Source: an uncultured Thermoanaerobaculia bacterium
Lineage (GTDB): Bacteria > Acidobacteriota > Thermoanaerobaculia > Multivoradales > Multivoraceae
Direction of reading: 5' to 3'
DNA: 64,000 nucleotides
Assembly: GCA_951812325.1 (NCBI GenBank)
Contig: OX638294.1
Location: forward strand, 434,001 to 498,000
The stretch's first letter is position 1, and the number at the start of each line of letters is the position of its first letter. The position numbers and the translations under genes were made by a program. The notes under the pieces were generated by a model that did no database searches, was not told the origin of the DNA, and worked only from the letters and a program-made list of their open reading frames with translations. Shown here piece after piece: positions 21,488-52,272 of this stretch.

Positions 21488-23646
<2,159 letters not shown>

Positions 23647-27496: not shown

Positions 27497-28981
27497 ATGG
27501 GGGTAATGGGTCGGGGTTTCGAGTCGTTCCTGGGCGGGTTTTCCCCGGGCGGCGTTACCGAGTTCTTCCTGAGGCTGTTGTTGATACTGCTTCTCGGGCT
27601 TCTGTTCTGCCTTTGGAAAGGGTGGTGGCCGACTTTGACGGCGCATGCGCCGGCGGTGCTCGCGTCCGTGGGGATCCTGGGTACTTTCATCGGGATCGTG
27701 GTGGGGCTTCTGGGCTTTGATCCGGCCCAGTTGGACGAGAGCATCGAGGGCTTGCTGCAGGGGTTGAAGACGGCCTTCATCAGCAGCGTCGCCGGACTGT
27801 CGGCCAGCCTCGTCTTCAGGGGGCTGGAGCCGGTCGTGGCGCCACGGGTCGCACCAGCGGGAGCGGAGGATGTCGGCCCCGCAGACGTTGTTGCCGTGCT
27901 GAGAGAACAGAGGGACCTTCTCAAGGCGACGCGCGATGCCATCGCAGGTGACGAGGAATCGAGTCTGGCCGGTCAACTGAAGCTGCTGCGGGGAGACTTG
28001 AGGGACCGGCAGCGAGCGTTCGAGGCCGAACTCTGGGAGCGCCTTTCCGGGTTCGCCGAGATGCTGTCCAAGTCCGCGACGGAGCAGGTGATCGAGGCGC
28101 TCAAGGAGGTCATCGTCGACTTCAACCGGAATCTCACGGAGCAGTTCGGCGACAACTTCAAGAGGCTTGACGACTCCGTTGGGAAGCTTGTGGAGTGGCA
28201 GGAGGGCTATCGCCAGCAGCTCGAGCAGCTGCACGTCCTGTACGAGCAGTCGTTGCGGCAGATCACGGCGATCGAGCAGTCGGTCGCCAGCATCGCCGAC
28301 CGTAGCGAGAGCATCCCGGCGTCCATGGAGAAGCTGATCGATGTCGTGAAGGTGGTCAGCGCCGAAACCGAGGAACTCGAACGCCATCTCGCCGCCTTCG
28401 CGGAACTGCGCGACCGCGCCGTGGAAGCCGTGCCGGAGGCGCAGGCGCATGTGCGGGCGATCACGGAGGACATCGGCGCGGCCGTGCACCTGGCCGGCGA
28501 GCACGTGACGAAGATGCAGAAGGACTCCACCGAACAGCTGGCGAAGTCCCGGGAGTTGCTGGCAGGGCTGGCGGAGACGGGCGACCAGGTGCGGGCCGAC
28601 ATCGGGAAGGTCCATGAGCGTGTGACCGAGGCCATCGCCGACATGCTGTCGCGGCTGGAGACGGCGTTGAGACAGTCGGTCAACACGCAGACTCAGGCCA
28701 CCGATGACCTCGTCCGAGGGACGATCAAGGAGACCGAGAAGGCCGTCACCAGGACCGGCGAGGCCCTGACCAGGGAACTTGAAGCTCTCGACGACGCCCG
28801 GTCCAGGGAGATGGAGCGAGTGATTCAGGGCATGGCGAATGCGCTGGGCCAGATCTCTGGCCGGTTTGTGGACGACTACACGAAGCTCGTCCGGGCGATG
28901 GATCAAGTCGTCAAGACGGGTAGAGCCAGTCCGGCAGGGAGCGCTCCCCCTCCTCTCAGCGACGACGACATACCCTTCTAG
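27497..28981 (+). CDS. zorA: Zorya anti-phage system protein ZorA (MotA/TolQ/ExbB-type) with long coiled-coil tail
   Basis: The 494-residue protein has membrane helices at about 23-42 and 52-75 (VLASVGILGTFIGIVVGLLG) and a third at about 95-110 (TAFISSVAGLSASLVF). The GTFIGI and TAFISS elements are those of MotA/ExbB proton-channel subunits. Residues 130-470 are almost entirely helical with heptad patterns and no enzyme motif, as in the ZorA tail that projects into the cytoplasm. With ZorB it forms a proton-driven complex that senses phage infection. The C-terminus is a Pro/Ser-rich linker ending DDDIPF. The ATG at 27497 follows GGGGAGG; a second ATG at 27506 is possible. Confidence 0.88.
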   Translation: MGVMGRGFESFLGGFSPGGVTEFFLRLLLILLLGLLFCLWKGWWPTLTAHAPAVLASVGILGTFIGIVVGLLGFDPAQLDESIEGLLQGLKTAFISSVAGLSASLVFRGLEPVVAPRVAPAGAEDVGPADVVAVLREQRDLLKATRDAIAGDEESSLAGQLKLLRGDLRDRQRAFEAELWERLSGFAEMLSKSATEQVIEALKEVIVDFNRNLTEQFGDNFKRLDDSVGKLVEWQEGYRQQLEQLHVLYEQSLRQITAIEQSVASIADRSESIPASMEKLIDVVKVVSAETEELERHLAAFAELRDRAVEAVPEAQAHVRAITEDIGAAVHLAGEHVTKMQKDSTEQLAKSRELLAGLAETGDQVRADIGKVHERVTEAIADMLSRLETALRQSVNTQTQATDDLVRGTIKETEKAVTRTGEALTRELEALDDARSREMERVIQGMANALGQISGRFVDDYTKLVRAMDQVVKTGRASPAGSAPPPLSDDDIPF

Positions 28982-28996: not shown

Positions 28997-29710
28997 ATGA
29001 AGGATCGAATGGAACGCCTGTTCGGCACGGGCCGGGCCGCCGCTCCGACAGGCGAGCACTGGTTGACGATCTCGGACCTGATGGCCGGGCTGATGATGGT
29101 CTTCCTCCTCATCTCCGTCGCCTTGATGCGGAGCGCGTTTCTCGACCGGGATCGCATGCGCGAAGTTGCAGTGGCCTACCGGGAAGGCCAGATCGCCATC
29201 GATCAGGCATTGCGCCTGGAGTTCGAGGCCGATCTGGAAAACTGGGACGCGGCGATCGATGCGGACAGCCTCACGTTCGAGTTTCGCTCGCCGGAGGTGC
29301 TGTTCGAGGCCGGCGCCAGCACGCTGCAGCCACGGTTTGCCACCATCCTCACCGACTTCTTCCCCCGCTATCGGCGAGTGCTTCAGGGGTTTGATGACGT
29401 GATCGAGGAAGTGCGCCTCGAGGGCCACACCTCCAGCGAGTGGCCGTCAGCCACCGAGGACAAGGCGTACTTCAACAACATGATGTTGTCTCAGGGTCGC
29501 ACGCGATCGGTTCTGGAGTACGTCTACGGTCTTCCCGCGCCCCCCGACGATCGAAGCTGGGTGAAGCGCAAGGTCGCCGCGGTGGGCTTCTCCTCCTCGC
29601 GGCTCGTGACGGACACCTCTGGCCGCGAAGATCCGGAGGCGTCTCGCCGAGTGCTGTTCCGCGTGGTGACGAACGCGGAGACGCAGATTCGCACGATCAT
29701 CGAGCAGTGA
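28997..29710 (+). CDS. zorB: Zorya anti-phage system protein ZorB (MotB/OmpA-type)
   Basis: The 237-residue protein has one membrane helix at about 22-45 (WLTISDLMAGLMMVFLLISV). It carries the MotB-like proton-binding aspartate at residue 27 in ISDLMAGLMM. An OmpA-like peptidoglycan-binding domain follows: EVLFEAGASTLQPRF, VRLEGHTSSEWPS, NNMMLSQGRTRSVLEYVYGL, and VGFSSSRLV. ZorB anchors the ZorA channel to the wall, like a stator unit. It starts 15 bp after zorA and ends 4 bp before zorE, so the three genes form one operon. Confidence 0.9.
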   Translation: MKDRMERLFGTGRAAAPTGEHWLTISDLMAGLMMVFLLISVALMRSAFLDRDRMREVAVAYREGQIAIDQALRLEFEADLENWDAAIDADSLTFEFRSPEVLFEAGASTLQPRFATILTDFFPRYRRVLQGFDDVIEEVRLEGHTSSEWPSATEDKAYFNNMMLSQGRTRSVLEYVYGLPAPPDDRSWVKRKVAAVGFSSSRLVTDTSGREDPEASRRVLFRVVTNAETQIRTIIEQ

Positions 29711-29714
29711 CGTC

Positions 29715-30578
29715 GTGCGTCTGAACGTCGATCTCAGCAGTCTGGAGGAAGCGGCAAACCGTATGGGGCCGCGCCGGGAAGGCCCGAAGATCGACGTCCG
29801 GCGTGGACTCGACCCGGTGGACCCCATCGACATCAAGCTGAAGACGGGGATCATCACCGACCTGACAGCCATCAGGATCGAGCCGGCCTCGCACCTGTTG
29901 ATCTACGAGGGACGGCAGGTCGTCGTGTACATCGAGGATCACGGCTGGCGCATTCGCGAGGTGATCAGGGTCGGGTCAAAGGGCAAAAAGGTTCACGTCG
30001 CGGACTGCCGGACTCTGAAGGAGATGCGGCGTCAAGGGCGCTACGATCGTTACGTCGCGACCAACTCCGTCAGCGGAGAGTTCCTCGTTACCGGTTGGGA
30101 CGAAGCCGACGGGGAACGAGTCGGCCATCACGCCAGGTTGAAGGTCTGCAAGAACTGTCTGTCGACGCTGAACTATCAAGGCTACAACTACAAGAACGAG
30201 AGGAATCGCGACCGTGTGTTCCGAGCGTTCGCGTGGGACGAGTTCTTCAGGGAGTACCGCCCGCAGTTCGCCCGGATGCCAACGCGCACTCCGGGCGGGT
30301 TCGACGGGGACTATGCGCTGAGCTGGGACGTGGTATCCACTCGGTACCGAAAGAGCGTCGGCTTCACGTGCGAGGGCTGCGGGGTCGATCTGAAGGAAGA
30401 ACGCCGGCTGCTCCACGTGCATCACATCAATGGAGTCAAGACGGACAACAAGGACGAGAATCTGAGAGCGTTGTGCGTCGGGTGCCACAAGAACCAGCCG
30501 CTACACCAGCACATGCATATCGACAACGGGGACCTTGACCGCATCAGGCGGTTGCGCCGGCAGCAGGGCCTGTCGTGA
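29715..30578 (+). CDS. zorE: Zorya type II effector ZorE (HNH endonuclease)
   Basis: The 287-residue protein ends in an HNH nuclease module: zinc-binding CEGC (219-222) and CVGC (254-257), with HVHHINGVKTDN and the ENLRALC helix between them. Those give the HNH metal-binding histidines and asparagine. A further CKNC pair lies upstream in KVCKNCLSTLNYQG. The N-terminal half is unrecognised and may bind DNA or ZorAB. An HNH protein directly after zorA-zorB defines Zorya type II, as opposed to ZorC/ZorD in type I. The start is GTG, 4 bp after the zorB stop. Confidence 0.85.
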   Translation: MRLNVDLSSLEEAANRMGPRREGPKIDVRRGLDPVDPIDIKLKTGIITDLTAIRIEPASHLLIYEGRQVVVYIEDHGWRIREVIRVGSKGKKVHVADCRTLKEMRRQGRYDRYVATNSVSGEFLVTGWDEADGERVGHHARLKVCKNCLSTLNYQGYNYKNERNRDRVFRAFAWDEFFREYRPQFARMPTRTPGGFDGDYALSWDVVSTRYRKSVGFTCEGCGVDLKEERRLLHVHHINGVKTDNKDENLRALCVGCHKNQPLHQHMHIDNGDLDRIRRLRRQQGLS

Positions 30579-51798: not shown

Positions 51799-52272
51799 AT
51801 GCTGAACCAAGTGATCCTGATCGGCCACCTCGGCCGCGACCCGGAGCTCCGCACCACCCAATCCGGCCAGACCGTCGCCAACTTCAGTGTCGCCACGAAC
51901 CGGCGCTGGTCCGACCGTGACGGCAACCGCAAGGAAGAGACCGAGTGGCACTACGTCGTCTGCTGGGGCCGCCAGGCCGAAGTCGCCGGCCAGTACCTGA
52001 CTCGAGGCAAACTCGTGTCGGTCGAGGGTCGGCTGCAGACCCGCTCCTGGGACGACCAGCAGTCCGGCCAGAAGCGCTATCGCACCGAGATCATCTGTCG
52101 CAACTTCCAGATGCTCGGAGGCCGCGGCGACACCGGCGGCCAGTCCGGCGCCGGCGGACAGCCCGGCTATGGGCGAAGTCAGGCGGCTCCCACCCAGTCC
52201 GCTCCCGCCCAGTCCGCCCCCCGGGACCCCGGCTTCGACCCCGCCGGCGCCGACGACGACATCCCCTTCTGA
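51799..52272 (+). CDS. ssb: Single-stranded DNA-binding protein
   Basis: The 157-residue protein has the SSB OB-fold ([64 protein letters not shown]). A Gly/Gln/Ser/Ala/Pro-rich linker follows, and the acidic tip DDDIPF, which recruits replication and repair proteins. A purine-rich GAAAGGA sequence lies about 10 nt upstream of the ATG. The same DDDIPF ends ZorA at 28981. Confidence 0.97.

Follow-up and report, generated by a model that had tools for sequence, protein, structure and literature searches.

The ZorA protein of a Zorya type II operon in an uncultured Thermoanaerobaculia bacterium ends in DDDIPF, the same six residues that end the single-stranded DNA-binding protein (SSB) of the cell. 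The two proteins had been paired in a preliminary description of this DNA, and the ends of both reading frames confirm the match. On balance, we are slightly inclined to read the last 18 residues of ZorA as a flexible linker followed by a functional copy of the SSB tip, which would dock host proteins that bind the tip of SSB; the docking, the partner, and the effect on defence are what we infer from this resemblance. The features concerned are listed in Table 1, in which positions are those of the window, that is, the whole stretch of 64,000 nucleotides that was analysed.

Table 1. Positions of the Zorya genes, the ssb gene, and the parts of the two C-termini in the window
Feature	Position	Strand	Description	Evidence
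zorA2	27497..28981	+	MotA-like membrane subunit with a long helical cytoplasmic tail	PADLOC ZorA2, E 2.6e-144; helices predicted to residue 476
Linker, ZorA residues 477-488	28925..28960	+	Pro/Ser/Ala-rich, 12 residues, from the last tail helix to the tip	
DDDIPF tip of ZorA, residues 489-494	28961..28978	+		Sequence; pattern counts and controls
zorB2	28997..29710	+	MotB/OmpA-like peptidoglycan-binding subunit	PADLOC ZorB2, E 3e-89
zorE2	29715..30578	+	HNH effector	PADLOC ZorE2, E 2e-101
ssb	51799..52272	+	Single-stranded DNA-binding protein of the cell	Pfam PF00436, E 6e-42
DDDIPF tip of SSB	52252..52269	+		Sequence

ZorA and SSB end in the same six residues

The adjacent genes zorA2, zorB2, and zorE2 form, by their PADLOC assignments, a Zorya type II operon; the ZorE nickase of the E. 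coli Zorya II system has been characterised (PMC11890865). ZorA is encoded by a frame of 494 amino acids, the C-terminus of which reads SPAGSAPPPLSDDDIPF, or, in two other lengths of the same end, ASPAGSAPPPLSDDDIPF followed by the stop codon and VVKTGRASPAGSAPPPLSDDDIPF. The tip together with its stop codon occupies 28961-28981. SSB ends in AGADDDIPF and a stop codon, and the final six residues of the two proteins are identical. The end of ZorA therefore has the form by which an SSB tip is recognised, namely acidic residues and then I/L-P-F at the extreme C-terminus. A Pfam search gave no match to an SSB domain in ZorA, which thus lacks the OB fold expected of a member of the SSB family. Judged by its sequence, ZorA is not an SSB, and only the tip is common to both.

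The window also holds a gene for a type III DNA methyltransferase (21712-23646, minus strand; PADLOC MTase_III, E 1e-102). Within it, at 22098-22128, 31 consecutive C (read as G on the coding strand) encode poly-Gly in the current frame. Slippage at tracts of this kind usually renders a gene phase-variable, and a frame shift at this run would swap the C-terminal part of the methyltransferase.

The tip follows a linker that is predicted to be flexible

An AlphaFold model of the ZorA monomer, made with 37 homologues as input, had a mean pLDDT of 74, which is moderate confidence. It consists of helices spanning residues 2-114 and then long helices spanning residues 128-476, in keeping with the MotA-like membrane part and long helical tail that are expected of Zorya II. 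The last tail helix ends at residue 476, and pLDDT is <50 for residues 478-494, which are predicted to be disordered. The model thus agrees with the preliminary description, which had placed a Pro/Ser-rich linker before the tip at the cytoplasmic end. SSB needs 11-20 linker residues, the sequence of which is irrelevant (PMC10164576), and the 12 non-helical residues 477-488 in the model suffice for a flexible linker of ~11-20 residues or more. The main anchor of the SSB tip is its terminal Phe with the carboxylate of that residue (PMC10164576). The ZorA tip has the features that are read by SSB-tip pockets (see PMC10164576), which are a C-terminal Phe with a free carboxylate, a Pro, and Asp residues.

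Structures of Zorya I and II show ZorA and ZorB in a 5:2 ratio, with the C-termini of ZorA bundled into a cytoplasmic tail on which defence depends (PMC11890865). By homology to these 5:2 complexes, the window ZorA would carry five tips at the far end of its tail.

The tip is absent from the other ZorA proteins examined

We surveyed chromosomal ZorA genes in one genome per species and obtained 80 loci, 79 of them with a complete C-terminus. These 79 homologues are 25-47% identical to the window ZorA in local alignments, and none has an SSB-like tip; the tip is likewise absent from all four plasmid ZorAs (ZorA2 of E. coli, Vibrio, and Pseudomonas, and ZorA1 of Klebsiella). A comparison of ZorA C-termini had been proposed at the outset as a check on the tip, and its outcome is negative: conservation throughout Zorya is rejected. 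Nearly all homologues stop within ~15 residues past the conserved last helix, and the linker of the window ZorA reaches beyond the end of nearly all of them. On this comparison, the tip is no trait of Zorya but an extension, specific to this lineage, that follows the last tail helix. Since no other examined ZorA has it, Zorya works without the tip, which can only add something. A search of the phylum yielded two more clear ZorA2 loci, which stand outside the C-terminal count.

Neither 20 further genomes of the genus nor 78 more distant relatives yielded another ZorA, and the Zorya system of the window was therefore probably acquired horizontally. A second ZorA/TolQ-like core protein of ~581 residues with a long helical-looking tail is encoded at G000:C1:2353820-2354041 (L197:661-2406, plus strand), and is followed by a gene for 301 residues; it is also found in G016, and it ends without the SSB tip.

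Origin of the tip

The preliminary description allowed that a six-residue match might be due to chance. Given the amino-acid frequencies of ten genes of the window, a DDDIPF end is expected ~1.5e-8 times per protein, or 6e-5 times in a genome of 4200 proteins. The bacterium's own genome (4.6 Mb) has five places at which DDx[ILM]PF precedes a stop codon and none for the reversed pattern. All five are exactly DDDIPF, and they belong to ZorA, SSB, XseB (the small subunit of exonuclease VII), and two related uncharacterised proteins. In 72 genomes of the order, exact DDDIPF with a stop codon occurs 77 times, as against zero for the reversed motif and zero for the composition-matched permutation DDIDPF, so the caution about chance was not borne out. 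The wider pattern DDx[ILM]PF with TRR also takes TGG and some chance sites (the reversed control gave ~17 matches in 99 genomes), and for this reason our conclusions rest on exact DDDIPF.

A chance origin of the ZorA tip thus appears very unlikely. The idea that chance identity of six residues explains the tip draws on the shortness of the motif, but it has to contend with the tiny number expected per genome, the empty permuted and reversed controls, and ~2.3 Gb of Pseudomonas sequence in which DDDIPF not preceded by F, L, I, M, or V is found twice only, both times in TIR orthologues. We give it practically no weight and regard it as already close to refuted.

We also considered that the tip might be a recent DNA copy of the 3′ end of ssb. 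In the 42 nt 5′ of the ZorA tip, 14 of the 42 positions match ssb, and the Ile of the tip is encoded by the rare ATA codon. The preceding nucleotides being so unlike ssb and the codon so rare, the tip is no fresh copy, and this origin was ruled out.

Other carriers in the order and the genus

The 77 places in the order comprise 64 SSBs, three XseB proteins (all in the genus of the window), two ends that are artefacts or unresolved, and eight other proteins, including ZorA itself. The two that were left out of the 13 non-SSB ends are L150, in which the frame runs through an apparent CRISPR array, and L155, at a contig end. Among the other carriers is a HerA ATPase (L189) inside a BREX-like cluster of SIR2, HerA, PglX, PglZ, and BrxA, and an AbiJ_NTD4/PDC-S32 protein with a type IIG restriction-modification gene and a HicA as neighbours. 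The tip is also found on two Ser/Thr kinases (L190 and L192), one of them ~5 kb from a PDC-S35/TIR gene; they match the PADLOC PD-T4-6 models, which match ordinary Ser/Thr kinases as well, and were excluded from the defence count. A small tip-bearing protein with a DnaD-like match (E 0.008) lies near type I restriction-modification genes. Of the seven carriers other than ZorA, with which the survey began, two are in defence families and three more are near genes recognised by PADLOC; these figures are descriptive counts and do not amount to a statistical test.

The two uncharacterised carriers in the bacterium's own genome (L193:7254-8021, plus strand, and L194 around 8001, minus strand) have a common C-terminal domain of ~90 residues that is 56% identical between them and has no convincing Pfam match. 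The first of them adjoins a PDC-S37/Hhe-like defence gene of 2015 residues. XseB ends in DDDIPF or DDEIPF in seven species of the genus (L005/L195, L123, L125, L127, L130, L131, and L135); the tip, here that of SSB on a subunit of a core DNA nuclease, is kept while the preceding sequence varies.

The tip recurs on TIR and HerA proteins outside the order

Most SSBs of the Gammaproteobacteria have Phe or Leu before DDDIPF, and our survey pattern excludes a tip that follows F, L, I, M, or V; with this pattern, 369 gammaproteobacterial genomes gave 23 ends, comprising 22 SSBs and one TIR-domain protein. The 399 Pseudomonas genomes gave two ends, NGDDDIPF in both cases, on orthologous TIR_2 proteins. 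Full-length plasmid relatives of the Pseudomonas TIR protein keep the tip, and the sequence before it is not conserved. These relatives end in EDEDDLPF (Acidithiobacillus ferriphilus, 52% identity) and MQDDDLPF (Enterococcus faecalis, 30% identity). As DDDLPF is the usual SSB end in Gram-positive bacteria (PMC5531588), the Enterococcus mimic has the SSB form of its own lineage. In Klebsiella, a member of a second TIR family likewise retains the tip (IESDDIPF, 53% identity); prophage and other TIR relatives are without it.

A genome of Nitrococcus that had been chosen for its Zorya encodes a HerA (L372) with the tip, 44% identical to the HerA of L189, in a BREX cluster of SIR2, HerA, PglX, BrxC, and BrxHI. 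BREX clusters with SIR2 beside HerA are thus found in two distant lineages, and in both HerA ends in DDDIPF. The tip is absent from two other near HerA homologues of the class, from several plasmid HerA proteins, and from three plasmid AbiJ homologues. Carriers are sporadic, most HerA, AbiJ, and TIR homologues being without the tip, and within defence families it is thus both gained and lost.

These distributions bear on whether the tip does anything at all. An extension that arose by recombination or by a shift of the stop codon, and that never came under selection, would look like what we see in ZorA, where a single protein has the tip and no close relative is available to show conservation. 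However, other non-SSB proteins of the genome share the end, XseB retains it in seven species of the genus, TIR families keep it across phyla, and the DNA before it is not ssb sequence; we regard a functionless hitchhiker as distinctly unlikely.

Phage proteins also carry the tip

Phage contigs contain 80 ORFs that end in DDDIPF (L247-L326), 21 of which match an SSB profile that we built. Ten of the remaining ORFs were examined, and among their products are two sliding-clamp-like polymerase processivity factors, a DNA helicase, an Erf annealing protein, and SSBs of two phage families, one of them gp2.5-like. DDDIPF is common outside SSB in phages, on many unrelated folds. Its presence on so many unrelated replication proteins suggests that phages use the tip in assembling their replication machinery and, when the defence carriers are considered too, that it is a portable docking tag that serves both parties in the conflict.

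With so many phage replication proteins bearing DDDIPF, and TIR and AbiJ-type proteins bearing it as well, the ZorA tip might be a bait or sensor that attracts phage proteins that bind SSB tips, their arrival then reporting infection or exposing them to ZorE. We consider this unlikely, since no phage binder of the tip was identified here and Zorya is thought to sense disturbance of the envelope or peptidoglycan via ZorB, upstream of phage replication (PMC11890865).

Proposed function of the ZorA tip

In the mimicry of the SSB tip that we slightly favour, the five ZorA tails would bundle and so display five tips where the Zorya motor ends in the cytoplasm. The tips would dock host proteins that are normally bound to the SSB tip (RecO, RecG, PriA, ExoI, or similar), and docking would tie the membrane-anchored motor and the ZorE nickase to the ssDNA-handling machinery at phage DNA that is entering the cell or replicating. 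The genome encodes RecO, a host protein of this tip-binding kind. The preliminary description had suggested that the tip could recruit the partners of SSB or compete for them, and either mode would fit the present results. The most economical reading is that ZorA would dock a host SSB-binding protein, thereby bringing an ssDNA-processing activity and ZorE together at phage DNA. Support for mimicry comes from the recurrence of the tip on other defence proteins and from the Enterococcus form, which follows the SSB of its lineage; independent cases that connect the tip with defence are few.

The SSB tip itself affects DNA binding by SSB, and the acidic tip of ZorA could similarly act within the complex, folding back on ZorE or the ZorA tail, or imitating DNA, so as to keep the complex quiet until infection. 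It would fit such regulation that ZorE is cytoplasmic at rest and is brought to the membrane by ZorAB during infection (PMC11890865). However, the exact Ile-Pro-Phe end, and Leu-Pro-Phe in the Enterococcus TIR protein, suit an SSB-tip pocket better than they suit a generic acidic tail, and the carriers have no partner protein in common, which leaves internal regulation very doubtful.

We are evenly divided on a broader proposal, that unrelated defence proteins (Zorya, BREX-associated HerA, AbiJ-type, TIR, and perhaps kinases) repeatedly acquire the SSB tip in the form of their lineage to plug into, or monitor, the ssDNA-processing hub, to which phages, too, gain access by the tips of their replication proteins. 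Neither Zorya II nor the SSB tip with its binding partners is new in itself. What appears new is the tip on ZorA and its recurrence on defence proteins: the literature that we searched, an incomplete coverage with most subscription papers outside it, holds no description of an SSB tip on ZorA or on unrelated defence proteins, in line with the preliminary description, which knew of none in Zorya. The tip bears on the question of how Zorya, anchored in the membrane, engages DNA where it is needed, and a six-residue tag whose binding pockets are well studied lends itself to direct tests with known partners and with point mutants such as delta-F or Pro to Ser. Should unrelated defence proteins share the tag, it would link phage defence to the SSB hub and offer a simple sequence signature for finding more of them.

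Comparison with known systems

ZorA resembles the hub formed by the C-terminus of SSB in having the same DDDIPF at the end of a linker that is flexible and long enough, and in being an oligomer that shows several tips (five for ZorA, by homology, and four for SSB). The two differ in that the putative docking tip of ZorA is on a membrane-anchored motor, whereas that of SSB is on an ssDNA-binding OB fold. Gene order, PADLOC families, the helical ZorA tail, and the HNH effector are those of Zorya type II, but every other ZorA examined ends at, or just after, the tail helix and is without the tip. The phage proteins (gp2.5-like SSBs, Erf, clamp, and helicase) similarly present DDDIPF on unrelated folds; they serve phage replication, whereas ZorA serves host defence. 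The BREX-associated HerA, PDC-S32/AbiJ_NTD4, and TIR_2 proteins are soluble, are not membrane motors, and have no homology to ZorA, yet they share with ZorA a tip, exact or in lineage form, that follows a variable linker at the very C-terminus.
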